Assembly (NCBI GenBank): GCA_030614785.1
Contig: JAUWTJ010000033.1
Location: 1-39,040 of the forward strand
Direction of reading: 5' to 3'
Origin: Alphaproteobacteria bacterium
GTDB lineage: Bacteria; Pseudomonadota; Alphaproteobacteria; M2410
Length of the DNA stretch: 39,040 nucleotides
This document shows positions 26,406 through 31,131 of the stretch, one piece after another. The position numbers and the translations under genes were made by a program. Under the pieces are notes generated by a model, which saw nothing but the letters and a program-made list of their open reading frames with translations, was not told the DNA's origin and searched no databases. Position 1 is the stretch's first letter, and each line of letters opens with the position of its first letter.

Positions 26406-28133
26406 CTAGTTGGCCAGCCGCTGAAGGTGCTCGTTCAGAGCGGCGTTTTTAGCCAGCAACTTGAAGCGCTCCATCGGCTCCATGTCCTGCTCGCACGGAT
26501 CCCCGTTGACGGGGAATTTTACGGCGCCAAGCGCTTCGGTGAAATCAGCCGCCCGCATAAAGCTGGCGACATGCCGCGCGGCCCCGGAGGCACAATTTCC
26601 CTGGGTCAACACTCCGGCCTCGAGCAGACGCAAGAGCGTTACGGCCTTCTCAGCCGAAGACACTTTTCGTTCCGCAATTGACTGGAACAGCTTTCCCTTG
26701 ATCTCGACCCTTGCAGAAAGACTGTCAAAGTCGTCCATCACCTTGTGCTTTTCTTCATCCGGAAACCCGGATTCCAGAACCCGAACCTGAAGCGAGGCCA
26801 GGCGCCCGAGGCGGCGCAACAGCGGCTCCTCTGAATTCATGAACTGCGGCTCCATTTTTGGACCCGTCAGTATGGGAACAATATAGTCGACAAGGCGCGC
26901 CTTGTTGGCGTCGCCAATGATATTTTCCTCCAGATCAAGCAGCAAATCAATTCGCTCGTCCGGGGTCATCGCCTCGGCCATATATTCTTCGGCCATCTCC
27001 GGCATGGTCAGCCGCGTCGAGCGCCTTTCAAAGGCCGAAATAATATCGCCGATCGAGGCCATCGGCCCCTGACACAGAACCATGCGCTTGGCGAGGCGGC
27101 GCGTCACATCAACCTCGCGGTGAATGTCGTCGGGGCTGAGGCGTTTGATGCCGTTCAGCTCGCCAAGAACGCGCCGCAGCACCGAGCTACGCGAATGCTG
27201 CAACTGATCCTTGCCAAAACACTTCGCCAGACGGGTCAGGCCCTGGTTTTTGGCAATCTCCGGATTGTCGGTTTTGCCGAGGAAGAGATCGACCAGCAAC
27301 AGGAGCGATTCCCCGAGATCCGGTTGCTCGCCAATCAGGTCGCCCAGCGCCGAGCGCCCGCTCACGATTTCGGAAACAAAGTCATCAACCGAGCTCAGGC
27401 ACATGGTCTGACCCACCTCGTTTGAGGGCAGGTGGTCCATATATTCAAGCAGCACCGAAAGCTTCTCACCCCAGCTATCAGTCTCTTTCAAGGCGTCGGC
27501 AATGGCCCCGCCAAGGATATAGCTCGGCTCCGAGGAGCGCTCCGCCATGTCCCAGGCCCCGGCAAGGTTGTTGCCCTTGATCTTCGGGAAAATTTTAGCG
27601 CGCGCGTCCTTGAAGCATTTTTCCATGCCCTTGGACACAAGCTCGTTGAGCTGTTTCATAACCTCGACAACGGGAAGGTTTGCCGACGTAGACTGAGTAA
27701 TCGCCCATTTCTGCAGCGCATGTTGCAACACGGTGCCGTTGGCCTGCAGTTCCTCGAGCATATCGGCCCGGTGCAGCAGCTCCATCGTGGTCAGGCCCCA
27801 GCGGTTGAGAGCATCTTCCAGAACCCGTGCGATCAGAATGCGCGCGTGAGCAGAATAAAGATCGCGCGGCGTCAGGCAGGGCAGCTGGACCTCTTCTTTG
27901 CCGCGTTTGATGACTTCAAACCCGCCTTCTTCAAAGACGGTAATCGGCAAATATTCTCCGGTCTCCAGATTATGGGTTTCCTTGACCACTCGGGCCCCGG
28001 AGAACGCCTTCTGCAGCAGCGCATATTTGGCAGAGTTCATCGCCGCAGCGCGCTCGTCATACGCCTCGTGCAAGACCCAGGTCTTCTGACCTGCCTTGAT
28101 AATAAAAACTTCGTAGTGAATCTTCTTCGCCAT
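26406..28133 (-). CDS. Large protein of unknown function next to the tRNA-Gly island
   Basis: A 575-residue soluble protein I do not recognise. Residues 1-80 look like a small beta-rich domain (KKIHYEVFIIKAGQKTWVL) with an Ala-rich helix. The remainder (about 95-575) is almost wholly helical, with many Leu, Glu and Lys residues, arranged like a helical-repeat scaffold; there are no catalytic motifs and no membrane segment. The start has only a weak ribosome site. The full-length, high-quality reading frame and GC-rich codons mark it as resident chromosome, and it ends the resident block just before the left island boundary at about 28.3 kb. Confidence 0.7.
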   Translation of the reverse strand: MAKKIHYEVFIIKAGQKTWVLHEAYDERAAAMNSAKYALLQKAFSGARVVKETHNLETGEYLPITVFEEGGFEVIKRGKEEVQLPCLTPRDLYSAHARILIARVLEDALNRWGLTTMELLHRADMLEELQANGTVLQHALQKWAITQSTSANLPVVEVMKQLNELVSKGMEKCFKDARAKIFPKIKGNNLAGAWDMAERSSEPSYILGGAIADALKETDSWGEKLSVLLEYMDHLPSNEVGQTMCLSSVDDFVSEIVSGRSALGDLIGEQPDLGESLLLLVDLFLGKTDNPEIAKNQGLTRLAKCFGKDQLQHSRSSVLRRVLGELNGIKRLSPDDIHREVDVTRRLAKRMVLCQGPMASIGDIISAFERRSTRLTMPEMAEEYMAEAMTPDERIDLLLDLEENIIGDANKARLVDYIVPILTGPKMEPQFMNSEEPLLRRLGRLASLQVRVLESGFPDEEKHKVMDDFDSLSARVEIKGKLFQSIAERKVSSAEKAVTLLRLLEAGVLTQGNCASGAARHVASFMRAADFTEALGAVKFPVNGDPCEQDMEPMERFKLLAKNAALNEHLQRLAN

Positions 28134-28290
28134 AGGGGCAGGTTCGCCTCAAACACCAGGACACGCTTCGCCGCCGACCCTAAAGAAATCTGCTTAAGAC
28201 CGCGTAAACCACAAGCAAACCGTGCCAGCCCGGCAAGGGACCACCGGCAAAGCCGGTTAACCACCGATCAGTGCGTCTATAGGTAATATA

Positions 28291-28367
28291 TCATTAAGAG
28301 TTTCTGGAGCGGGCGATGAGGGGCGAACTCCGGGAGCTAACTTGGGCAAGGCTCCCCTGGCTCTTGA
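28291..28367 (-). repeat. Left attachment-type repeat: degraded tRNA-Gly 3' copy
   Basis: Bases 28291-28320 match 31043-31072 at 28 of 30 positions, with a 20-base identical core at 28301-28320 that contains the 3' CCA end and acceptor stem of tRNA-Gly. Weaker similarity continues through the anticodon arm (taacttgggcaagg here against taaccttggcaagg in the tRNA) to about 28367. It cannot fold as a working tRNA: the T-arm and D-arm are altered. This is the expected scar of integration into a tRNA 3' end. Confidence 0.75.
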
Positions 28368-29108
28368 TGGATTAAGGGCGCGAGATTGTTTCGCACATCC
28401 AAGGGCTACCCTTTAACAAAATGTTAGAGCATAGACCCGCAGCGCTGGATCTGTGGTGGACTTCGGCTAGCAATGCCAAATTGGGTTCAGTGGGCGTTCG
28501 AATTTCGAACACCGAGCTGTAAGACCCTTCACGACTAAGGGTTGCTTATAGCTATAGCCTTCTGCCCAAGTAGCTCTACTCCTGCCACAGAATGATTTCG
28601 ACGGCCAAGTAGTGACCAAACTTAATGTCCTCGGTGCCTTCATTGAACTGAAAGGTATGGAGTTCGACGGGGAGACGATGCATTGAGGGTCGGCGCTATC
28701 TGGTAAGCCAGGGGCTTGTGGTCTTTTCACACAGCCAAGGGCAACCCTTTAAGAAATTCCTTACGTCAATACCTTGGAAGCCCAATTCGAAACCAGCCGC
28801 TCTCAGGGGGCTCCGACAGACTTGGGCGGCGAGACGTTGCATTGACGGAGCACGCGTATCCAGTGTCCGTCGACCGAGAGCAAGGAGCCACCAACCGGAC
28901 ATCGAGGCAATAACACCTTGGCGCGCCCAAGACGAAAGAGTAGCCTTGCGGTCTAATCCATAACTCGACACAGAGCCACTGCGCCTCGCAATTTTTCTGT
29001 TAACTACTTTCCGAGTGCGCGAAGGAAATTTGAATCTGATATCAAGGGCTTAGTTCGAAACGTGGTTAATGCAACGATGGCGGCACTACGAAACGGAAGA
29101 AACAATGC
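28321..29108. other. Gene-free, repeat-bearing left half of the island
   Basis: No supportable intact gene. Two pairs of decayed repeats are present: 28394-28420 and 28730-28756 (24 of 27 identical), and 28672-28689 and 28831-28848 (16 of 18). The second pair reads in frame as GETMH-stop and GETLH-stop, so these may be 3' ends of decayed related genes; about 40 codons are open before the first. gttcgaatttcgaac at about 28496 is a short palindrome. The stretch could instead encode a structured RNA for the abi gene downstream. Confidence 0.4.
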
Positions 29109-29137
29109 TTGACGTGGGACTCAGCTTATCCAATAAC
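29109..29137 (+). promoter_or_regulatory. Candidate promoter of the abi operon
   Basis: TTGACG (29109-29114) and AATAAC (29132-29137) at 17 bases, matching the sigma-70 consensus at five and four of six positions. Transcription would start near 29144, just before the hairpin at 29150-29190. Confidence 0.45.
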
Positions 29138-29149
29138 GGATACAACAAC

Positions 29150-29199
29150 ACCCCCCACGCCTCTCGTAAGATCGGCGCACCTTGGGGGGTTACTTTTTT
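29150..29199 (+). terminator. Terminator/attenuator hairpin directly before the abi start codon
   Basis: Arms accccccA (29150-29157) and TGGGGGGT (29183-29190) pair perfectly and enclose a second stem CGCC/GGCG (29158-29161 and 29174-29177). Six T follow at 29194-29199, and the abi ATG is at 29214. This is the shape of an intrinsic terminator placed in the leader, so most transcripts from the promoter at 29109 would end after about 55 bases. Confidence 0.6.
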
Positions 29200-29213
29200 C
29201 TGGGGCGGCCATC

Positions 29214-30131
29214 ATGGTCAAATTTGACAAACCCCAGACCACTGTTTCCGATCATGTTGAGCGTCTAAAAGGCCGAGGGATGACCTTTGCCGATGAAGCC
29301 TTTGCAAAGCATTGCTTGGCCCATATCGGGTATTACAGGCTTACGTCCTACTGGCTGCCATATGAAGCAGACCACGGCACGCACACTTTTCACGCAGGGA
29401 CGTCATTTGAAACTGTCCTAGGCCACTATGCCTTTGATCGAGAACTTCGGTTGCTAGTGATGGACGCAATCGAACGTATTGAAATTTCCATGCGAACGCG
29501 GTGGGCCTTCGAACTGGCGAATGCACATGGACCACATGCACACCTCCTGCCGGCCCTGTTCATGTCCAAATTCGGTCAAGGAGGAAGGACTGTCTGGGAC
29601 CATCAGAGGGGCATTGAGGACCTGGAAAAGGAGCAGAGCCGAAGTCGAGAAACATGGGTGAAACACTTTCAGTCCAAATATGACGAGCCCCTGCCTCCAC
29701 TATGGGCAACTTGTGAACTCATGACGCTCGGTGCTTTTTCCAAATGGTACAGCAACACAGCAAGCGATCGTTTGCGCAAAAATGTCGCAAGATCATATGG
29801 CCTGGACATGCAAATTCTGACGTCATTCCTTCATCACATTGCGGTGGCTAGAAACATCTGCGCTCACCACTCGCGTCTTTGGAACAGGAGCTTCACCTTT
29901 GTGTTGAAACTTGCGCGCCACCCAAGAGACCTCAACTCCAGCCTCAACGCTACTGAAACCCGTAAGATCTACAACACTCTGACGATGCTGGCTTATTTGA
30001 TGGAACAGATTAGCCCTGATACCGCTTGGAAGAAAAAGGTACTTGAAAGCATAGATCGGCGCAGTATTGACGTGATGCAGATGGGCTTTCCAGCCAATTT
30101 CAAGACAACGCCAGTCTGGCAAGGTATCTGA
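29214..30131 (+). CDS. AbiD/AbiF (Abi_2) family HEPN-type protein
   Basis: A 305-residue protein of the Abi_2 (AbiD/AbiF) abortive-infection family, presumed RNases that stop host growth after phage entry. The N-terminus VKFDKPQTTVSDHVERL followed by IGYYRLTSYWLP (about 38-49) is the family opening; RELRLLVMDAIERIEISMRT is the central helix. RNICAHHSRLWNR, with Arg213 and His218, fits the HEPN RX4-6H catalytic signature. The ATG at 29214 matches family starts; a TTG at 29109 would read through the hairpin and add 35 poor residues. Base composition differs from the flanking chromosome. A membrane-anchored protein gene follows at 37 bases. Confidence 0.85.
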   Translation: MVKFDKPQTTVSDHVERLKGRGMTFADEAFAKHCLAHIGYYRLTSYWLPYEADHGTHTFHAGTSFETVLGHYAFDRELRLLVMDAIERIEISMRTRWAFELANAHGPHAHLLPALFMSKFGQGGRTVWDHQRGIEDLEKEQSRSRETWVKHFQSKYDEPLPPLWATCELMTLGAFSKWYSNTASDRLRKNVARSYGLDMQILTSFLHHIAVARNICAHHSRLWNRSFTFVLKLARHPRDLNSSLNATETRKIYNTLTMLAYLMEQISPDTAWKKKVLESIDRRSIDVMQMGFPANFKTTPVWQGI

Positions 30132-30168
30132 CCTACCGGCAACCACTGGCAAATAGTGGGAATCCAAA

Positions 30169-30849
30169 ATGAATGAGATACTTACGTTCGCGCAGCAGTC
30201 CCTCGTGGAGCCCACTATGGCATTTCTGGCCTGGCTCCCTCAGGCTGTGTTAGCCGTCACTGCTATCTTCGCTGCCAACGTTTGGCGGAAACAGGTCCGA
30301 GAGCCGCACCGTCTTGATGTTGCACGGAAAACAATTATTGTTGCCAGCAAGATTCAGGATCAACTGACGGAAGCGCGCCGCTCAAATGCTGTTCGCAGGA
30401 CACAAGTCAAATCATACCTCGATCTGTTGGAAGGTGATGAAAAGAACACGGAAGCCACTTATGACACGTTGAAGCATTGTCTCCCAATCGATGGGGGAGA
30501 AGGCTTGCAGCAACTGAATTGGGAAGCTTTGGAACAAGTCTATGAGCTGCGGGCGCAGGGTTTAGAAGACACCTCAAAGGCGATGGAACGCCTCCGGTCA
30601 AAGGTTCAACACTTTCGTTTTATGGCGCAATTCGCTGCAAGCGCCATTACCCTTCCACATAGGAGGTTATTGCCAATCGAAAATTGGGACCCCTCCGTTT
30701 GTCTTGAGCTCCAAAGCGAAAATAAAATCGAAGGTGGTGGAGTTATAGCCATCATAAGGAACTATGAAGACCCATTCGCAAAGAGCATTACAGCTTTGCT
30801 GTCAGATATTACCGACCAAATGATGGTCATTATCGACCCCAAAAAATAA
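30169..30849 (+). CDS. Membrane-anchored protein of unknown function, abi partner
   Basis: A 226-residue protein I do not recognise. One membrane helix (about 16-38, MAFLAWLPQAVLAVTAIFAA) is followed by a basic stretch and then a cytosolic, mostly helical region (about 45-170) with coiled-coil-like heptads, ending in a small mixed domain with IIRNYEDPF and MMVIIDPKK. It begins 37 bases after the abi stop, with GGGA before the ATG, so the pair is probably one operon. Its position suggests it senses membrane damage or localises the Abi protein; that is inference. An inverted repeat at 31005 may end the transcript. Confidence 0.65.
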   Translation: MNEILTFAQQSLVEPTMAFLAWLPQAVLAVTAIFAANVWRKQVREPHRLDVARKTIIVASKIQDQLTEARRSNAVRRTQVKSYLDLLEGDEKNTEATYDTLKHCLPIDGGEGLQQLNWEALEQVYELRAQGLEDTSKAMERLRSKVQHFRFMAQFAASAITLPHRRLLPIENWDPSVCLELQSENKIEGGGVIAIIRNYEDPFAKSITALLSDITDQMMVIIDPKK

Positions 30850-30948
30850 ACCCGCCAGAAACCTTGTAGCTGGGCGCCAACGTGAGATGTTTGCAGAAGG
30901 AGGGCGCTCTCACAAAGAGGAGCTAAATCAGGTCGAAAAATCTCAAAG

Positions 30949-31026
30949 TGGCACCAGGCTGGCACTAGGCTGGCACCAGAGGCCAAATGACAGGGCAACC
31001 ACGAGTGTGCCACCTCTATGGCACAC
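30949..31026. repeat. Cluster of TGGCAC repeats beside the tRNA-Gly attachment site
   Basis: Three tandem 11-base units (tggcaccaggc and variants) at 30949, 30960 and 30971, then a perfect 8-base inverted repeat gtgtgcca/tggcacac at 31005-31026 with a 6-base loop. TGGCAC therefore occurs five times in 78 bases, four in one direction and one reversed. The arrangement resembles arm-type integrase sites next to a tRNA crossover point. The inverted repeat, with TTGTTTT 12 bases later, could also terminate the island operon. Confidence 0.5.
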
Positions 31027-31042
31027 CAATAACATATTGTTT

Positions 31043-31072
31043 TCATTGAGAATTTCTGGAGCGGGCGATGAG
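31043..31072. repeat. Right attachment-type repeat, overlapping the tRNA-Gly 3' end
   Basis: Matches 28291-28320 at 28 of 30 positions; the identical 20-base core is 31053-31072. It contains the encoded CCA, the discriminator base and the 3' acceptor strand of the intact tRNA-Gly. Confidence 0.75.
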
Positions 31073-31131
31073 ATTCGAACTCACGACCCTAACCTTGGCA
31101 AGGTTATGCTCTACCCCTGAGCTACGCCCGC
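31057..31131 (-). tRNA. tRNA-Gly (GCC anticodon)
   Basis: The minus strand folds as a complete tRNA: acceptor arm GCGGGCG/CGCCCGC with discriminator T and encoded CCA (31057-31059), D-arm GCTCAGGGGTAGAGC, anticodon stem-loop AACCTTGCCAAGGTT with GCC centred, and T-arm GTGAGTTCGAATCTCAT. It reads glycine GGC/GGU codons. Its 3' end is duplicated at 28305, marking the island boundary. Confidence 0.97.

Follow-up and report, generated by a model that had tools for sequence, protein, structure and literature searches.

Among the closest described systems is RCd22-AbiFCd of C. difficile, in which promoter, RNA, terminator and abiF follow one another in that order (PMC12373285). Deletion of RCd22 raises abiF 17-fold, RCd22 neutralises the toxin both in cis and in trans, and the RNA and AbiFCd bind each other directly (PMC12373285). 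For PbAbiF of Prevotellaceae, the partner of the RNA AbiFr (PDB 8VZ6), the same paper reports that an R210/H215 double mutant is inactive (PMC12373285), and a review gives one RNA per protein monomer (PMC12737573). More distant are the ToxIN, AbiQ, TenpIN and CptIN systems and CRISPR-Cas13, of which AbiF has been reported to be an ancestor-like relative.

In this study, we analysed a locus in the window (the whole stretch of DNA under analysis, 39,040 nt) that is very probably an AbiF/abiF-RNA toxin-antitoxin module of a type III-like kind. Judged by its sequence, the RNA has its own promoter in front of it and a terminator-like element between it and abi, the latter, a hairpin with a U-run, having already been recognised in the original prediction. 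The locus shares with RCd22-AbiFCd the order of promoter, abiF motif RNA, terminator and Abi_2 HEPN gene, as well as the RNxxxH motif of the protein. However, RCd22 has two abiF motifs and the window one, the terminator of RCd22 is marked separately whereas the motif hairpin of the window itself bears the U-run, and RCd22-AbiFCd lies in a prophage lysis module whereas the window module lies on a tRNA-flanked insertion. The window protein is homologous to PbAbiF over its full length with the catalytic pair aligned, and its binding of RNA is proposed by analogy; the single-hairpin RNA found here would fit the one RNA per PbAbiF monomer.

The original prediction had described the arrangement as being exactly that of ToxIN and AbiQ, which proved too strong. 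The window has in common with ToxIN, AbiQ, TenpIN and CptIN the layout of RNA antitoxin gene, terminator and toxin gene, and presumably inhibition of the protein by the RNA. In contrast, the RNA units of those systems are tandem repeats processed into pseudoknots and their toxins belong to the ToxN family, whereas the window has a single hairpin, with no repeat of it within 28130-29230, and a toxin of the HEPN Abi_2 family. Membership of ToxIN/AbiQ was thus rejected on both the tandem repeats and the ToxN/AbiQ-type endoribonuclease. With CRISPR-Cas13 the locus shares the HEPN RNase domain, but Cas13 systems have an array, spacers and a two-HEPN effector, whereas the window protein has a single Abi_2 domain with a single HEPN and no CRISPR array-like repeats were found near abi.

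Elements of the locus and its predicted toxin gene

The features of the locus are as follows.

29109..29137 (+), RNA promoter: -35 TTGACG at 29109-29114, 17-nt spacer, weak -10 AATAAC at 29132-29137
29144..29199 (+), predicted abiF-type RNA of ~56 nt: 5' AACAACA leader, hairpin, U-run
29150-29157 and 29183-29190 (+), 5' arm ACCCCCCA and 3' arm TGGGGGGT of a perfect 8-bp outer stem
29158-29161 and 29174-29177 (+), inner stem CGCC/GGCG
29150..29190 (+), conserved hairpin: outer stem 29150-29156/29184-29190, inner stem 29158-29160/29175-29177
29194-29199 (+), T6 run, with the hairpin an intrinsic-terminator-like element by sequence
29214..30131 (+), abi, ATG at 29214: predicted Abi_2/AbiD-F family toxin of 305 aa with HEPN RNase motif RNICAH (R213, H218)
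28301..31072 (no strand), insertion bearing the module, 2.77 kb, bounded by 20-bp exact direct repeats
30169..30849 (+), 226-aa ORF in the same insertion

The promoter, 8-bp stem, internal stem, T6 run and abi ATG were each found by direct reading of the sequence where the original prediction had placed them. The promoter was not listed by a strict sigma-70 scan because the sixth base of its weak -10 element is C, and the call therefore rests on the conserved position of the promoter in relatives, discussed below. The conserved part of the hairpin comprises 7 bp of the outer stem and 3 bp of the inner stem, with CUCUC on the loop side and CACCUU on the bulge side; the eighth, innermost A-U pair of the outer stem is not conserved, being possible in 24 of 79 RNAs. 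The T6 run begins 3 nt past the stem, and the intervening TAC may weaken termination; 14 nt separate the run from the abi ATG. Folded as 29144-29200, the predicted RNA reaches -22.7 kcal/mol, whereas its shuffles average -12.9 (z -3.9) and none of 200 was as stable. A first-order Markov model predicts ~0.07 instances per window of perfect 8-bp arms with T6 behind them, and two were seen over both strands.

The 305-aa product matches PF07751 (Abi_2; E 1.9e-56), which is its only Pfam match, and is assigned to AbiD by PADLOC (2.8e-69). Its only sequence match in the PDB is the AbiF structure 8VZ6, with which it aligns over its whole length (E 1.2e-47), and R213 and H218 align with R210 and H215 of that structure; the fold is settled by this match. 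Most of the closest abi proteins, at ~48-50% identity, come from Betaproteobacteria and Gammaproteobacteria (Nitrosomonas, Halomonas and relatives), a distribution that fits horizontal transfer.

Identity and conservation of the abiF RNA

The hairpin at 29151-29190 matches the full length of the Rfam family RF03085 (abiF RNA) with 35.4 bits (E 3.6e-4), the only such match reported genome-wide. This score is 1.6 bits under the gathering cut-off of 37 bits, and an Rfam scan at that threshold missed the RNA; therefore, we built a covariance model, R1, from 39 relatives whose proteins are all <40% identical to the window Abi, the window itself being excluded. R1 matched the window at 29145-29199 with 50.5 bits (E 1.8e-9), and each of the two models has one match in the window. 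When aligned, the window RNA fits the conserved columns and base pairs. R1 also finds the RNA in relatives outside its training set, and this broader, independent model appears to place the window RNA well within the abiF family. The inner CGC/GCG of the window stands for AGC/GCU in the Rfam consensus, a compensatory difference. When 289 genomes of the same class were surveyed, only three matches scored above 36 bits, the window being one of them; those of 29-36 bits, which in some cases lie on both strands, resemble ordinary terminators. The link that the original prediction drew to AbiF RNA and the ancestry of Cas13 is upheld.

The original prediction had named loss of the hairpin from relatives that keep abi as an outcome that would speak against it. 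Among 80 loci retrieved via the protein, 77 had sufficient upstream sequence, and R1 found the RNA directly before abi in 75 of these, the opposite of that outcome. RNA control of a HEPN toxin, as had been proposed, is supported. Even in the two exceptions a hairpin is present, as seen by pattern search and by eye in L031 and as a variant identified by eye in L086. Going by their record titles, the loci come from Proteobacteria, Bacteroidetes, Verrucomicrobia, Planctomycetes, Cyanobacteria and further groups. Of the distant loci from the same class, L003 carries the RNA according to R1, L004 and L005 have other hairpins with U-runs before abi, and L006 has no evident hairpin there. In L004 (1428-1475) and upstream of abi in L086, a CAAC leader, CCCCUCUG and then a U-run precede more distant abi genes, and these variant hairpins are possibly another subtype of abiF RNA.

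The structure itself is supported by covariation: among 81 distinct rows, 9 of the 10 pairs have changes on both sides, a level reached by none of 500 shuffles, and covariation exceeded all shuffles in the training, mostly held-out and joint alignments alike. The 100% pairing among the 39 training loci is partly built in, because the script by which they were chosen demanded the stems. In the alignment of held-out loci, whose fitting to R1 is a bias towards the structure, 98.8% of cells pair, and neither any of 500 shuffles nor any of the slid controls matched the covariation. The features kept best across the RNAs are the inner G-C pairs, the U that follows CC, the bulge CA and the outer stem.

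Both ends of the RNA are also marked in the relatives. Of 77 loci, 60 have their best -35/-10 pair ending 3-10 nt upstream of where the model begins, compared to 17.5% in shuffles, hence the RNA is likely to start at about the conserved AACAACA; in the window, this motif and the position of the -10 element would put the 5' end near A29144. At least five of the nine bases past the stem are T in each of the 79 plus-strand RNAs, so that the terminator in this branch looks to be the abiF hairpin itself. For the window, these analyses establish the RNA family, its structural conservation, the position of the promoter, the U-run, the toxin family and the catalytic motif.

Hairpin, U-run and promoter would, on their own, suffice for an attenuator acting only in cis, with the hairpin a terminator that limits abi and the RNA devoid of antitoxin activity. 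We consider this unlikely, however, as features for which a terminator has no need (the inner G-C pairs, the loop-side U, the bulge CA and the 5' A residues) are kept across phyla, homologous RNAs act in trans (PMC12373285), and in Halomonas sp. McH1-25 an abiF RNA persists where the abi gene of its operon is gone. The short leader RNA is the better candidate for the antitoxin, as had been proposed. The original prediction had also offered a longer RNA from 28.3-29.1 kb, of which the hairpin would merely be the terminator. That stretch seems non-coding and holds two diverged repeat pairs, but the part common to the relatives is the promoter and hairpin only, with no longer upstream RNA conserved, and the stretch has no Rfam match and begins with a tRNA-derived attachment-like repeat; apart from this tRNA-like end it had no convincing match elsewhere in the genome. 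A longer antitoxin RNA is therefore highly improbable. A reading of the element as a chance hairpin or as the unrelated intrinsic terminator of some upstream transcript, which has nothing but the hairpin and U-run in its favour, can hardly be credited given the R1 E-value, the covariation and the fixed position before abi.

A second hairpin in the read-through mRNA, hiding the ribosome site (UCUGGGG/CCCCAGA), was considered separately, similar pairing being possible in some relatives. Downstream segments swapped among 64 loci pair equally well and 116 of 300 permutations were as good, so this hairpin is unsupported.

A tRNA-Gly insertion and other settings of the module

The window module arrived in its genome beside a tRNA gene. 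The 20-bp exact repeat (28301-28320 and 31053-31072) that bounds the insertion is the 3' end of a tRNA-Gly(GCC) gene, with likeness extending to 61 bp at 80% (28291-28351 versus 31043-31103), and the G+C content of the insertion is 0.49-0.53 compared to 0.57-0.60 in its flanks. It contains the RNA, abi and one ORF without a family; no integrase or phage genes were found among the insertion ORFs checked. That ORF, of 226 aa, matched nothing significantly in Pfam, PHROG, NCBIfam or PADLOC, is absent from the abi loci of relatives, and is probably cargo rather than a member of the toxin-antitoxin pair. The left, non-coding part of the insertion carries diverged direct repeats at 28376-28420/28712-28756 (78%) and 28660-28689/28819-28848 (80%).

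Other genomes of the class have this tRNA-Gly next to a thioredoxin-TPR gene. In a family relative (G003, locus L162, contig C84), the tRNA-Gly site holds a mobile mystery A/B pair (HTH and Fic; TIGR02612, TIGR02613) at ~185-1251, with copies of the tRNA end near 1329 and 1501. Small toxin-antitoxin-like modules thus seem to land repeatedly at the tRNA-Gly gene.

Other settings were seen among the relatives. Among the Halomonadaceae, in Chromohalobacter and Modicisalibacter (L146, L147), two complete RNA-abi modules lie within one type I restriction-modification (R-M) operon, in the order hsdM, RNA-abi, hsdS, a DUF4357/GIY-YIG gene, RNA-abi and hsdR. Halomonas sp. McH1-25 (L148:6993-7044, the same as L010:395-446) has the same operon with the first abi missing and its RNA and promoter kept; loss of the toxin with the antitoxin RNA retained is a tolerable loss for a toxin-antitoxin pair. 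In L063, near-identical abiF RNAs (1025-1076 and 2155-2206) flank one abi gene, the second lying just before tgt.

A proposed mode of action and its significance

As an AbiF/abiF-RNA module, the locus would be expected to work as follows, where we infer from C. difficile RCd22 and PbAbiF how efficiently transcripts terminate, that RNA and protein bind, and that the protein is toxic and neutralised. The promoter would start a short RNA near A29144, and the abiF hairpin with its U-run would end most transcripts near 29199, giving a surplus of antitoxin RNA, while occasional read-through would yield abi mRNA. The hairpin RNA may then bind the AbiF HEPN dimer and block its RNase. Were the RNA lost or out of balance, for instance when phages attack, the toxin would be released and growth would stop, although an anti-phage trigger is a guess.

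The pairing of AbiF with abiF RNA is already known, and the locus is ordinary in kind and well supported: since its hairpin belongs to the known abiF RNA family, it represents a usual and well-preserved example of such an RNA antitoxin and protein toxin pair. The central guess of the original prediction was a good one, and its main reading is largely but not wholly borne out. What the locus adds is a clean single-hairpin AbiF module that the Rfam cut-off narrowly misses, and the alignment of 79 RNAs represents a set on which to test how an RNA as small as ~50 nt can act as both terminator and antitoxin. This is of wider relevance as Cas13 and its guide RNAs have been proposed to originate from the AbiF family. 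In addition, the tRNA-flanked insertion and the modules embedded in R-M operons show how such pairs travel. The dual use of the hairpin and the R-M embedding are the points that deserve follow-up. As one hairpin would be both antitoxin and terminator, binding of AbiF to the nascent hairpin could alter termination and so make the supply of toxin self-adjusting in the large single-motif branch. We put this forward only tentatively, as an idea with a rather low chance of being right; if true, the very RNA that neutralises the toxin would let it gauge how much of it is free.
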